The notes under the pieces were generated by a model. The model was not told the origin of the DNA and did no database searches. It saw only the letters and a list, made by a program, of their open reading frames with translations. Position numbers and translations under genes: made by a program. A stretch of DNA of 64,000 nucleotides from Bdellovibrio bacteriovorus HD100. Lineage in GTDB: Bacteria > Bdellovibrionota > Bdellovibrionia > Bdellovibrionales > Bdellovibrionaceae. This document shows positions 20,472 to 62,630 of the stretch, one piece after another. Position 1 is the first letter of the stretch; each line of letters starts with the position of its first letter. The stretch covers positions 682,001 through 746,000 of the forward strand of contig NC_005363.1 in assembly GCF_000196175.1 (NCBI RefSeq), written 5' to 3'.

Positions 20472-21611
20472 ATGGAGTCCGCTTCCCAGGTAGAAAGTAG
20501 CGAGGGCACCGCCGTCGCGAAACCTGCTCCCGTAAAAAAGATCAAGATCATCGTCAGTGATCTCCATTTGGGGAAGGGCCGCCTGTTGGAAAAAGGCGGA
20601 ATCAATTCGCTTGAAGAATTCTATTACGGGGAAAAGCTTGTGGAGTTCATCCACTTCTATTCCACCGGTGTCTATCGCGACTATGAAGTCGAACTGATCA
20701 TCAACGGGGACTTCCTGAACTTCCTGCAGTGTGATTACAAAGGCCACTTCCTGTCCGTGATCACTGAATCCGTGACTTTGGAGATTTTGAAAGACTGCGT
20801 GAACGGGCACAAGGCCGTCTTCACAGCTTTGGCTGAATTCGCCGCAAAACCCGGCAACACCATCACCTACATCGTCGGTAACCATGATCAGGGGATGCTG
20901 TGGCCCGCCTGTCGCGCCTACCTGAATCAGGTCATCGGCACGCCGATTCGTTTTAAAAACATCGTTTACTTCTTTGATGGAGTTCACATCGAACACGGCC
21001 ATATGCATGAGGCCGCCAATCGTATGGACCCCAAAAAGTTCTTCCTAAAAAAGGATCTGGTGGAGCCGATCCTGAATCTGCCGTTTGGATCCCATTTCTT
21101 CCTGGAAGTCGTGTTGAAAATCAAACAACACTACCCCCATGTCGACAAGATCCGTCCTTTCGGCAAAATGGTCCGCTGGGCTTTCCTGAACGAAACCGGA
21201 ACAATGGTTCGCGCCTTCTTTATGGCCATGGGGTATTTCCTGAAAAGCATCCTGGTCAAGGATCCGCGCCGTCATTGGCCTTTGAAACGAATTATCCAGG
21301 TGATTGCCGAAAGCGCGATCTTCCCGGATTTGAGTGAATCAGCGCGTAAAATCCTGGGGGATGACCGCGTGCACACGGTGATCTTTGGCCACACCCATGT
21401 TTATCAGTATCGCCAGTGGTCCGAGAATAAAGAATATTTCAATACGGGAACATGGACTGAGATCACTTCTTTGGATATTGTGTCCTTGGGAAAGATCACG
21501 AAACTAACCTATGTTCTTATCGAATACCCTGAAGACGGAGGCCGGCCGCGAGGTAGGTTGAAGGAGTGGAAGGGTTACCACAAAATCGAAGAAGACGTAG
21601 CTATTTCCTAG
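20472..21611 (+). CDS. Calcineurin-like metallophosphoesterase
   Basis: A 379-residue protein with all five metallophosphatase blocks: SDLHLG (Asp30, His32), NGDFLNF, GNHDQG, HGHMHE and FGHTHVYQ. This is the LpxH-like/UDP-diacylglucosamine pyrophosphatase style of the superfamily, with a dinuclear metal site, but the length is well above LpxH and the substrate is uncertain. About 20 polar residues precede the domain. A hydrophobic stretch around residues 250-265 could touch the membrane. The start lies one base after the coiled-coil gene stop, so the two are translationally linked. The first of two structured intergenic repeats follows immediately. Confidence 0.85.
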   Translation: MESASQVESSEGTAVAKPAPVKKIKIIVSDLHLGKGRLLEKGGINSLEEFYYGEKLVEFIHFYSTGVYRDYEVELIINGDFLNFLQCDYKGHFLSVITESVTLEILKDCVNGHKAVFTALAEFAAKPGNTITYIVGNHDQGMLWPACRAYLNQVIGTPIRFKNIVYFFDGVHIEHGHMHEAANRMDPKKFFLKKDLVEPILNLPFGSHFFLEVVLKIKQHYPHVDKIRPFGKMVRWAFLNETGTMVRAFFMAMGYFLKSILVKDPRRHWPLKRIIQVIAESAIFPDLSESARKILGDDRVHTVIFGHTHVYQYRQWSENKEYFNTGTWTEITSLDIVSLGKITKLTYVLIEYPEDGGRPRGRLKEWKGYHKIEEDVAIS

Positions 21612-21617
21612 GCGGGC

Positions 21618-21731
21618 GATGAAAACGGCCCATCCGACTGCGTTGTCGGACAGCCTTCTCGCTTCGACGTGCTTGGAGCACGCCTGCGCTGCGAGGGCTG
21701 TCCTCCGCCTTGCGGCTGGACCGTTTTGATC
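21618..21731 (+). repeat. Multibranched structured intergenic repeat, copy A
   Basis: A 114-base element folds as follows: closing stem 21622-21632 with 21717-21727 (10 of 11 paired, extended by GAT/ATC across a G-G mismatch); hairpin TCCGAC/GTCGGA (21633-21650); stem CAGCC..CTCGC with GCGAG..GGCTG (21651-21662 with 21691-21700) enclosing hairpin CGTGC/GCACG (21668-21682); hairpin CCGC/GCGG (21705-21715). Copy B at 45280-45400 has the same layout with compensatory changes. It is not a tRNA. It could be a mobile REP-like element or an RNA. Confidence 0.75.
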
Positions 21732-21756
21732 ACCCTTTAAATCCCGGTAGTTTTCT

Positions 21757-21814
21757 GGCTGGCCCTTCGGGCGCCGCGGGGATGGGGAGTGCTGGCTCCC
21801 TTTGGGAGCGTCGC
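21757..21814 (+). repeat. Two tandem GCTGGC-type hairpins after copy A
   Basis: Units at 21759-21777 (GCTGGCCC, TTC, GGGCGCCGC) and 21791-21814 (GCTGGCTCCC, TTT, GGGAGCGTCGC) share a base but have different self-complementary tips. Three matching units follow copy B. Confidence 0.6.
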
Positions 21815-43434: not shown

Positions 43435-43639
43435 ATTTTGTTTGTGCCACCGATTTAAGTCCAAGTCATTCTTTCTCTTCAAAGGTCCAATTCAGAAAGC
43501 AGTGTGCAACCTTTGGACAGCAATTTCATTCGGGGTGTAAACGCACTAGTCACAAAAATTTCAAAATGAGATTCGTTTGAAAAGCCACAGAACATGCCCC
43601 CAAAATGGTTTCAGGAACACAAAGAAGCAGGGAGAAGGT

Positions 43640-45274
43640 ATGAAGAATCTAGGACTGATGGGCGCATTGATCGCAGCGATCGCTCTGACAGGATGTCTGG
43701 ACAACGGCGGTGGCACCGAGGTGAAGCAAGACCTCAACAATGGTGACTTCAGCGTTATCACCGAGCCGGAAACGGGCTCAGGTGGCGGATCAAACGGTGG
43801 CAGCTCAGAAGAAGGCAGCACCGGTGGCGACAATGGCAGCGGTGGTGGCACAACCACTCCTTCAGAACCGGATGGTTTTGACATCAACAAAGGTGCAACT
43901 CTGACGGCGTCCACCAGCTTGAACCTTGATTTCTATCCTCCTTTCCACACGGCCTACACCAAGGTTTCTGAAAATGAATCCTGCGGTGGCGGTGCTTGGG
44001 TGGACTATGCGGACTCTGGCACTTTGTTAAGTTCCAAGACCAATCAGAATGTTCCTGTCAGTGTGCAGTTCCGCGATCATGATGGTCGCACCAGTTCCTG
44101 CTATGTTCGTCGTATCTATATTGACCAGATCGGTCCTGACATCGTGTTTGCAAAATACCCTTCCGCTCCGGTTGAAGAAGGCCTGGATGTGGAGCTGATC
44201 TTCACTGTGACTGACGCGGGCGCGGGTGTGGCTTCTGTGACTTGTTCCATGGGTTCTTCCACCAAAGCCTGCGCGGCCGGCCAGAACAAAATCCTTTTGC
44301 CGAAACTTGCCGGTGGCGATTACACCCTGAAAGTTTCTGCAACCGACAAACTGGGTCATGCTTCTGAAAAATCCATCTCTTTCAAAGTTTCCTCCATGTA
44401 CAAACAGATGGTGAACAACGTGAAAGTGAACGAATACCAGAAAGTGGATATTCTGTTCGTGATCGACAACTCGGGCTCTATGGAATACGAAAAAAAAAGC
44501 ATGGCGTCCCGTGTTCGTAACTTCCTGGATGTGGTGAAAGGTCTGGACTGGCAGATTGCCGTGACCACCACCGATCCAGTACACAAAACCCTGGGTGATG
44601 GCCGCTTGGTTCAGCTTTATAACAAACCCGGCCAGTATATTCTGACTTCTTCCATGAACGACACCGACGCCCGCAATACTCTGAGCAGCACCCTGCAAAG
44701 AAGTGAAACCGGCTCCGGCAGTGAGCAGGGTATCTTCGCCGCTTACCGCGCGATCGAACGCTCTTTGAGCGCTTCCGGCGGCAACGCGAACTTCATCCGT
44801 AACGATTCCCAACTGGCTGTTGTGGTGATCTCGGACGAAGATGAATCTGCCAACGGTGCGAAGAACGATCCTGCGAACTTTGTGAAGTTCGTGGCTGACA
44901 GCTTCGGTTCCCAGAAGGCCATGAGCTTCCATTCCATCATCGCTCGTCCTGACGATCAGGCGTGCTTGAAGGGTGAAGGTTATTCTGCCGGCTTCCGCTA
45001 TGAACAGATTTCCAAACTGACCGGTGGTGTGATCGGGGACGTGTGTGCATCTGACTACGCAGCCCAAGTTCAGGGTATCGCTGAAGGTGTGCGCAAGACT
45101 TTGAAATCCATCACGCTGACATGTGCGCCGGTAGTGGATGCCATGAGATCGATCCTGGTTTTGAAAGATGGGCAGGTTTATGATGGCACTCGCAAGATGG
45201 AAGGACTGAACCTGGTATTCGACCAAATGCTGCCACAGGGGAATTACGAAGTTTACTACTCATGCATTAAGTAA
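43640..45274 (+). CDS. Lipoprotein with von Willebrand factor A domain
   Basis: A 544-residue lipoprotein (lipobox Leu-Thr-Gly-Cys, Cys19) with a Gly/Ser/Glu-rich linker (about 30-80), an HYR-like Ig segment around 150-250 (VELIFTVTDAGAGVASVTC, GDYTLKVSATDKLGHAS) and a vWA domain from about 270. The MIDAS metal motif DNSGSM (Asp276, Ser278, Ser280) is intact, followed by VVVISDEDES. The domain probably binds a protein ligand through a metal ion at the cell surface. ATG 43640 has GGGAGAAGG. Copy B of the structured repeat begins 5 bases after its stop. Confidence 0.87.
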   Translation: MKNLGLMGALIAAIALTGCLDNGGGTEVKQDLNNGDFSVITEPETGSGGGSNGGSSEEGSTGGDNGSGGGTTTPSEPDGFDINKGATLTASTSLNLDFYPPFHTAYTKVSENESCGGGAWVDYADSGTLLSSKTNQNVPVSVQFRDHDGRTSSCYVRRIYIDQIGPDIVFAKYPSAPVEEGLDVELIFTVTDAGAGVASVTCSMGSSTKACAAGQNKILLPKLAGGDYTLKVSATDKLGHASEKSISFKVSSMYKQMVNNVKVNEYQKVDILFVIDNSGSMEYEKKSMASRVRNFLDVVKGLDWQIAVTTTDPVHKTLGDGRLVQLYNKPGQYILTSSMNDTDARNTLSSTLQRSETGSGSEQGIFAAYRAIERSLSASGGNANFIRNDSQLAVVVISDEDESANGAKNDPANFVKFVADSFGSQKAMSFHSIIARPDDQACLKGEGYSAGFRYEQISKLTGGVIGDVCASDYAAQVQGIAEGVRKTLKSITLTCAPVVDAMRSILVLKDGQVYDGTRKMEGLNLVFDQMLPQGNYEVYYSCIK

Positions 45275-45279
45275 GCTAC

Positions 45280-45400
45280 GGTTGGTGAAAAGGGCCCAAT
45301 CGACTGCGTTGTCGGGCCCTGTCCTCGCTCCGACGTGCTTGGAGCACGCCTCCGCTGCGGTAGGACCCTCCGCCTTGCGCTTGAACCCTTTTGACCAACC
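45280..45400 (+). repeat. Multibranched structured intergenic repeat, copy B
   Basis: Same architecture as copy A. Outer stem GGTTGGT (45280-45286) with ACCAACC (45394-45400), a G-G mismatch, AAAAGGG (45288-45294) with CCCTTTT (45386-45392), and CAA with TTG; hairpin CGAC/GTCG (45301-45314); stem GTCCT..CGC with GCG..AGGAC (45321-45328 with 45357-45366); identical inner hairpin CGTGC TTGGA GCACG (45334-45348); hairpin CGC/GCG (45371-45379). Several stems differ from copy A but stay paired, including the same G-G mismatch in the outer stem. Confidence 0.75.
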
Positions 45401-45423
45401 GACTTTCTAGCGGTTGGTTTTTT
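45394..45423 (+). terminator. Terminator that shares an arm with repeat copy B
   Basis: ACCAACCG (45394-45401) pairs with CGGTTGGT (45411-45418), loop of 9, followed by six T. The left arm is also the right arm of the repeat's outer stem, so the two folds exclude each other. Confidence 0.8.
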
Positions 45424-45444: not shown

Positions 45445-45527
45445 GCTGGCGCTGCGCGCGCCGCGGGGTTTTGGCTGGCCCGCTGGGCGCCGCCTTTTTG
45501 GAGAGCGCTGGCGCTATCGCGCGCCGC
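45445..45527 (+). repeat. Three tandem GCTGGC-type hairpins after copy B
   Basis: Units at 45445-45464, 45474-45493 and 45507-45527 share GCTGGC and GCGCCGC (or GCCGC) ends while the tips differ: GC/GC, CC/GG and GC/GC. A degenerate fourth hairpin (TGCG/CGCA) lies near 45538-45550 beside the stop of the cytochrome gene. Confidence 0.6.
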
Positions 45528-61492: not shown

Positions 61493-62599
61493 ATGTCTGA
61501 CCAGTCGAACGTTTTCAAACAGACCATTCAGCAGAATCTCGGTCCTGTTGCGAAATACCTGGACGACAAGGGTGTGTCCGAAATTCTTATCAATGGCCAT
61601 AAGGAAATCTTCGTGGAAAGAAAGGGTAAGCTCGAAAGAGTTTCCGAGTCTTTCCCGTCCGAAGATGATCTGCGTGCCGCGGTGAACAGCATCGCGCAAA
61701 GTGTGGGTCGACGTATCGATGATGAATCGCCTCGTCTGGATGCGCGTCTTCCGGATGGTTCCCGTATTGCGGCGGTGATCCCGCCGATGTCCCGCAAGGG
61801 CACGACTCTTTCCATTCGTAAATTCACGAACAACAAAATCACTTTTGCCGACTATATCAAATTTGGTGCGATCACCGAGGATGGAGCACGTTTCCTGGAC
61901 ATCTGCATGTTCCTGGGAAAAAACATCATCGTCAGCGGTGGTACGGGTTCCGGTAAAACGACATTGCTTTCACTTTTATGCACGCGCATTCCGAAAGGTC
62001 AGCGAGTGATGGTGATTGAAGACTCCTCCGAGCTGCAGGTTGATTACGAGCACGTGGTGATGTTTGAAACCCGCCAGGCCGATGCCATGGGTAAGGGTGA
62101 AGTCACGATCAAGGATCTTTTAAAGTCCGCCCTGCGTTTGCGTCCCGACCGAATCATCGTGGGGGAGGTTCGTTCCAGTGAAGCGATGGAACTGCTGAAC
62201 GCCATGAATACCGGTCACAAAGGATGTATGGGAACGGTCCACGCCAACACGCCAGAAGATGCGATTGTGCGGTTGGAAGCCCTGGCTCAAGGTGGTGATG
62301 CGAAGATCAGTGAGAAGGCTTTGCGCTCTCAGGTGTCTTCGGCGATTGAAATTATTATCCAGGTCTCACGTTTTTCGGACGGATCTCGCCGTATCGCAGC
62401 AATCAGCGAAGTGCGCGGATTCAGTGCGGATGGTTCATACAACGTGATCCCGATCTTTGAAATGTCCCGCCTAACACGCCGTCCCGACGGAACCCTGGAA
62501 GGAAAACTCCAGCCCACAGGCAACGTGCCGTCGTTCATGGAAGAAATCATCGACAACAACCTGCCCTTCCCAAAATCCAAGTTCGCAAAAGTCGCCTAA
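61493..62599 (+). CDS. CpaF/TadA-like secretion ATPase
   Basis: A 368-residue cytoplasmic ATPase of the VirB11/CpaF family. Walker A is GGTGSGKT (149-156), followed by [28 protein letters not shown] (Walker B region), then [20 protein letters not shown]. It would power assembly of a Flp-like pilus or a type II/IV-like secretion line. No pilin, CpaB/C or TadB/C genes are next to it; instead it follows the cupredoxin gene by 24 bases. It is therefore a solitary ATPase with unusual partners. Confidence 0.9.
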
Positions 62600-62630
62600 A
62601 AGGTGCCTGGTGACTTTTTACACCTACGCC

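Follow-up and report, generated by a model that had tools for sequence, protein, structure and literature searches.

The window, meaning the whole analyzed stretch of 64,000 nucleotides of the Bdellovibrio bacteriovorus HD100 genome, contains two intergenic copies, A and B, of a repeated hairpin element, at the places given by an earlier reading made from the letters alone (the sequence-only reading). Copy A (21614 to 21735, plus strand) starts 2 nt past the TAG stop codon (21609 to 21611) of a co-directional gene (open reading frame 20472 to 21611, plus strand), and its arms GGGCGA and TCACCC enclose a unit running from TGAAAA to TTTTGA (21620 to 21729). Copy B (45279 to 45401, plus strand) starts 4 nt past the TAA stop codon (45272 to 45274) of another co-directional gene (open reading frame 43577 to 45274, plus strand), with arms CGGTTGG and CCAACCG around the corresponding unit (45286 to 45394). 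Both carry the apical hairpin CGTGC-TTGGA-GCACG on the plus strand (21668 to 21682 in copy A and 45334 to 45348 in copy B). As the sequence-only reading had stated, this hairpin is invariant, the two copies share a G-G mismatch, and their stems differ by paired changes (AAAACGG/CCGTTTT against AAAAGGG/CCCTTTT and CAGCC/GGCTG against GTCCT/AGGAC). Both copies are also more stable on the read strand than dinucleotide shuffles (z = -4.5 for copy A and -3.1 for copy B).

The strand that carries the fold

In a consensus of the 21 full-length HD100 copies (RNAalifold), the read strand forms a rod of 39 pairs, 19 of which have changes on both sides, with a covariation score of 0.354 compared with 0.147 in shuffles, in agreement with the earlier argument for selection on structure. 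The cloverleaf that had been proposed did not hold up. It scores slightly lower than the rod on the read strand, and its last hairpin (loop CTT) is paired in only 69% of cells and unpaired in 31%; the consensus is instead a single long rod, in which variable, co-varying stems surround conserved asymmetric internal loops. The proposed hairpin with loop TGCGTT is possible (95% of cells paired) but competes with the continuous rod.

The complementary strand folds better, with 97.4% of cells paired, 22 double-change pairs, a covariation score of 0.409, and a consensus energy of -61.5 kcal/mol against -43.7 kcal/mol for the read strand. For copy A, the minus strand (21614 to 21735) is predicted to form a continuous rod of -73.7 kcal/mol as RNA (z = -7.2) and -40.9 kcal/mol as DNA (z = -5.9), compared with -62.4 kcal/mol for the read strand, and the minus-strand rod of copy B (45279 to 45401) reaches -65.5 kcal/mol (z = -6.7) compared with -50.0 kcal/mol on the plus strand. 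The complement was the more stable strand in 93 of 95 Bdellovibrio copies (by a mean of 11 kcal/mol) and, among the matches listed, in 112 of 118 copies from elsewhere (by a mean of 9 kcal/mol). Base composition is not the cause of this difference, because the z score of the complement was lower in 23 of 23 HD100 copies (mean, -6.5 versus -3.7).

Arm mismatches on the read strand are mostly C-A (25 cases, with 6 of T-G or G-T), and no T-G occurs at arm pairs 3 and 4; because a read-strand C-A there corresponds to a G-T pair on the other strand, selection seems to act on the complement. The conserved fold lies on the complementary, non-mRNA strand. Arm sequences differ among copies without loss of pairing, and one arm pair occurs as all four Watson-Crick types. 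Double changes affect 20 of 26 consensus pairs across phyla, among the matches listed, and eight compensatory changes separate HD100 copies from their orthologs in two relatives, although these could also arise if one arm was corrected from the other.

The better fold of the complement, with its conserved G-U pairs, would suit transcription of that strand as an RNA gene or as a regulatory RNA. However, the 3' end of such an RNA would abut the stop codon of the opposing gene, where there is no terminator, and none of the eight known HD100 attack-phase small RNAs (PMC3627812, Table 2) overlaps a copy. An RNA of this kind also gives no reason for the replication polarity described below, and we consider it unlikely.

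Copies, insertions, and gene ends

Searches with BLAST and with a covariance model of the 21 full-length copies recovered about 32 distinct copies of the ~125-bp element in the HD100 genome (3,782,950 bp, one contig), several of them reduced to the outer stem. Matches occurred in 26 of the 40 genomes of our set of relatives, HD100 included, with up to 77 per genome; the carriers comprise the majority of the Bdellovibrio genomes, one of which gave just one weak match, plus a few genera elsewhere in the order. Three of these carriers, G012, G016, and G007, have 45 to 48, 19, and 9 copies, respectively. A degenerate core pattern, CATCTGCTGCGTTG-N40-70-CGCCTTGCATCTG, found at least 120 stretches in GTDB genomes, a cross-phylum set that was thus picked by the exact core. 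The matches listed come from Deltaproteobacteria, Nitrospirae, Methylomirabilota, Gammaproteobacteria, Omnitrophota, Selenomonadales, Gemmatimonadetes, Verrucomicrobia, and Acidobacteria, and six genomes from this list have 39 to ~149 matches each. With model R2, Geothermobacter has at least 145 matches and one Geobacteraceae genome at least 48. No match was found in 5,426 E. coli genomes (E ≤ 1e-3) or in the phages and viral contigs searched. Contigs of BDTX01, JAADIK01, and Guyparkeria also hold a shorter variant (L115 to L117, L119 to L121, and others) that has the CATCTGCTGCGTTG/CGCCTTGCATCTG core with a different interior and lies off stop codons in mixed orientation.

The element is mobile, as shown by empty sites in relatives and by a copy on a plasmid. 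In the relative G002, a copy with its own arms has been inserted directly after a TAA codon whose counterpart in the window is at 62597 to 62599, and the orthologous place (window positions 62594 to 62611, plus strand) is empty in HD100 and in a second relative, G023. Further presence/absence cases are HD100 3422457, G002 634864 and 3348614, and the pair G023 1459001/G002 2513162. At four other loci (HD100 1213414 and 996587; G002 292059 and 3743484), the place of the element is taken in the relative by an ordinary intrinsic terminator. The Bdellovibrio plasmid pBdHAGR2 carries one copy directly after a coding sequence, and G012 has direct, same-orientation tandem pairs of unlike copies about 125 to 138 bp apart (L366 to L375). 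Copies have often lost internal stretches or had their interior exchanged while staying at a conserved position. Insertion is slow, because most copies are common to HD100 and the two relatives. Another mobile-looking element, of ~63 nt and containing CTTCGGGCTGACGYGCAAAAATAGCATCCTGCTATTTTTG, is nested between TGCGT and TGTCGG in three copies (HD100 747075 and 1008682; G002 580033), and orthologs that lack it show an empty site.

A miniature DDE-transposon element like ERIC, RUP, or Correia, with TA as its insertion target, would fit the size and the imperfect palindrome, the presence of TA within two of the three stop codons, and the TA found at both ends of HD100 3422457. However, the arms vary while remaining paired and therefore offer a transposase no fixed terminal repeats, the adjoining stop codons, TGA included, occur at the frequencies of genome usage, and the empty sites show no consistent target duplication, of TA or otherwise. 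We regard this origin as very improbable.

With stop adjacency defined as a copy start at -12 to +9 nt from the stop codon (most commonly 2 to 4 nt), 65 of 85 copies in HD100, G002, and G023 start at the stop codon of a co-directional gene, where 2.6% would be expected by chance, and 0 of 85 lie next to an opposing stop codon. Genes were called in 20-kb stretches of these genomes by a home-made codon-usage scoring, as longest-open-reading-frame calls concealed the stop adjacency of several copies. In other phyla, among the matches listed, 46 of 106 scorable copies are sense-adjacent to a stop codon, compared with 6 antisense. Because the adjoining stop codons are used at genome frequencies, their sequence does not explain the preference.

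The left end of the element lies 0 to 5 nt past the co-directional stop codon or, in a minority of copies, past the T-run of an intrinsic terminator, and the right arm is followed by a T-rich tail. A strong intrinsic terminator uses the right arm as its own 5' arm in 11 of 81 copies, compared with 1.5 expected when partners are shuffled. In copy B, for example, the right arm CCAACCG can pair alternatively with CGGTTGG (45411 to 45417), which is followed by TTTTTT (whole terminator 45395 to 45423, plus strand); there, as at HD100 3670975 and G002 1302497 and 1930980, the next gene is convergent. Insertion into the loops of existing terminators, with the terminator stems becoming the arms, would fit the paired, locus-specific arms and the T-rich tail, but it was rejected, the four loci just named notwithstanding, since the relatives have no such arm sequence at the sites corresponding to G002 765696 and HD100 1213414.

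Orientation along the direction of replication

In HD100, dnaA lies at 394 to 882 and dif at 1,940,732 (PMC2731167). All 32 copies in this genome follow replication, the 16 before 1.6 Mb all being plus-strand and the 16 beyond 2.0 Mb all minus-strand. The same orientation is found for 45 of 45 copies in G012, 32 of 34 in G002, and 31 of 33 in G023, where replication direction was inferred with termini taken from the copies and synteny, so that these counts, and not that of HD100, are partly circular; many of the copies counted are also orthologous and hence not independent. Another carrier, G017, has more exceptions. As the copies follow replication, the well-folding strand is the leading-strand template and the poor folder is the lagging-strand template.

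Gene orientation alone was rejected as the cause, as 63 of the 65 stop-adjacent copies are on the leading strand, compared with only 53 to 55% of the genes in the fetched stretches (55% of those near the HD100 copies). Three HD100 copies that lie between lagging-strand genes still follow replication.

These patterns also bear on a functional RNA, selected in sense, that would lie in the upstream mRNA, either 3' untranslated or between cistrons, and act as a terminator, stabilizer, or regulator. Copies in sense next to stop codons, the T-rich tail past the right arm, the four loci where one relative has an intrinsic terminator and the other the element, and relatives in Geobacter that were annotated as short RNA elements (PMC2700814) would all agree with such a function. 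However, in 205 of 213 copies (the non-Bdellovibrio ones being among the matches listed) the sense strand is the less stable of the two, and the arm mismatches are C-A rather than U-G. Moreover, in convergent cases the element is followed by a canonical terminator 74% of the time, a higher share than where the element is absent, and genes on the lagging strand are almost without the element, although a function in mRNA should be indifferent to strand. The functional-RNA alternative of the sequence-only reading is therefore weakened, because the strand present in the mRNA of the upstream gene is the poorer folder, and we see it as a minor possibility. The other guess made there, a mobile REP-like DNA element, is supported.

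Mobilizers, known elements, and a proposed mechanism

REP elements moved through single-stranded DNA (ssDNA) by a Y1 (HUH) transposase, TnpA-REP, are dispersed extragenic hairpins, as is our element, for which movement through ssDNA is likewise possible, and replication polarity would suit a mobilizer of this type. Y1 proteins occur in many of the copy-bearing genomes, and no REP is known for two of the TnpA-REP subclasses (PMC6006769). In REP systems the repeats flank a Y1 gene of the same genome. However, no Y1 match was found in G012, G016, or G007, no copies adjoin the four HD100 Y1 genes, and the one copy neighbor among 23 Y1 loci is apparently due to chance, so that a Y1 mobilizer was rejected. 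REP elements are palindromes of 20 to 40 bp that carry GTAG or CGTC as a terminal tag on one side (PMC3733652), whereas our element is three to five times longer and has neither tag in its aligned left and right flanks. Furthermore, IS608-type insertion takes place on the lagging-strand template (PMC6006769), while the folding strand of the element is on the leading-strand template. An origin of the REP/RAYT type is thus quite unlikely. Reverse transcriptase was also rejected as the mobilizer, being absent from most carriers; the only PF00078 match of the HD100 genome is a reverse-transcriptase-like domain at 2601962 to 2602372, in an open frame of 1,589 codons.

The R-box of integron attC sites has the consensus RYYYAAC/GTTRRRY. 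GTTRRRY was not found in the element, whose invariant box, in alignments read by eye, is CGTTGTCGG/CCTCCGCCTTGC. The element shares other features with attC: both are imperfect hairpins with conserved boxes and variable stems, both occur directly after stop codons and in direct arrays, and both have their folding strand on the leading-strand template (PMC11023631). The bottom-strand preference of attC has a counterpart in the predicted folding asymmetry of the element. In chromosomal integrons, for which the leading-strand arrangement is reported, inversion of attC raises excision (PMC11023631). However, an integron integrase was rejected as the mobilizer, as 0 of 24 genomes had a TIGR02249 match over the cut-off (below it, matches turn up in almost every control genome too). 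No cassette array or attI was seen, and the element, unlike attC, is dispersed singly after conserved genes. Movement of the element requires neither a Y1 transposase nor a reverse transcriptase nor an integron integrase, and a dedicated mobilizer need not be present in every carrier genome. As a strand-selective hairpin at gene ends, the element resembles attC or REP, yet it fails the defining tests of both.

ERIC (IRU) elements are likewise intergenic imperfect palindromes, of ~127 bp, and are transcribed with their neighbors (PMC2229807), whereas our element has no detectable relative in E. coli genomes and has variable paired arms and a strand and replication bias. The earliest sighting that we found is an apparent relative, the Gmet_R1005 family of Geobacter metallireducens, listed in 2009 with 24 copies among "predicted short RNA elements" (PMC2700814, Additional file 4). 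In our comparison, which covered its central palindrome, GRCGTAGCGCTGCTACGCC, this palindrome matches the apical hairpin of the element and is found exactly in one of our copies, L181 (GGCGTAGCGCTGCTACGCC). The family is also multicopy and intergenic, lying, for example, between dapAB and dapL (PMC2700814). The text of that paper sets it out only as a predicted RNA, with no analysis there of strand, replication, stop codons, or occurrence across phyla. It is likely that the element is a source of misannotated "small RNAs."

Rfam gave no match for the 64-kb window at the gathering threshold or for three copies at E ≤ 1, on both strands, and a literature search with the sequence string of the element returned only unrelated papers. 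The claim that no described family fits therefore stands, with no Rfam match, no GTAG-tagged REP, and no integron. The sequence-only reading had named an absence of further copies or of covariation, or an Rfam or REP match, as outcomes that would count against it; on checking, further copies and covariation were present and neither match appeared.

We favor, with a probability of about 0.6, a nonautonomous mobile DNA element of ~125 bp that would act through the hairpin of one DNA strand, as the predicted folds suggest. An enzyme supplied in trans may recognize the folded single strand and join it to gene ends during replication. The ssDNA might be used as an insert on the lagging strand, or insertion might occur by any route and be followed by loss of those copies whose folding strand is on the lagging-strand template, where hairpin formation would lead to deletion or excision. 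The loss model is not helped by the four lagging-oriented copies, which were inspected for weaker folding and fold no worse than others. Copies at gene 3' ends would be neutral or mildly useful, some having replaced ordinary terminators. The observed placement, after stop codons of genes that run with replication or after terminators, puts nearly all folding strands on the leading-strand template.

More tentatively, we speculate by analogy with attC that such elements could be bacterial-wide, strand-specific ssDNA recombination sites that work without an integron integrase, a recombinase (perhaps a housekeeping one) directing them to gene 3' ends and replication direction deciding their persistence. 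Tens to ~150 copies per genome occur in several phyla, and the literature and databases searched gave no name, Rfam entry, or mobilizer for them. In Bdellovibrio, the element follows three sharp rules (a fold on one strand, copies along replication, and starts at stop codons), which make the spread and persistence of ssDNA hairpins near replication forks, a question of long standing, testable in culturable bacteria.

Two other repeats lie close to copies of the element. A GC-rich palindrome, GCTGGCNCTNCGNGCGCCGC, occurs three times closely downstream of copies A and B (21758 to 21777, 45445 to 45464, and 45474 to 45493; 0.01 expected) and is probably a separate repeat family. A further intergenic repeat, AAAAGGTGCCTGGT..ACTTTTT, is found in the window at 62598 to 62611, at L018 and L023, and at G002 765696; it lies 3' of genes and adjoins several of the hairpin copies.
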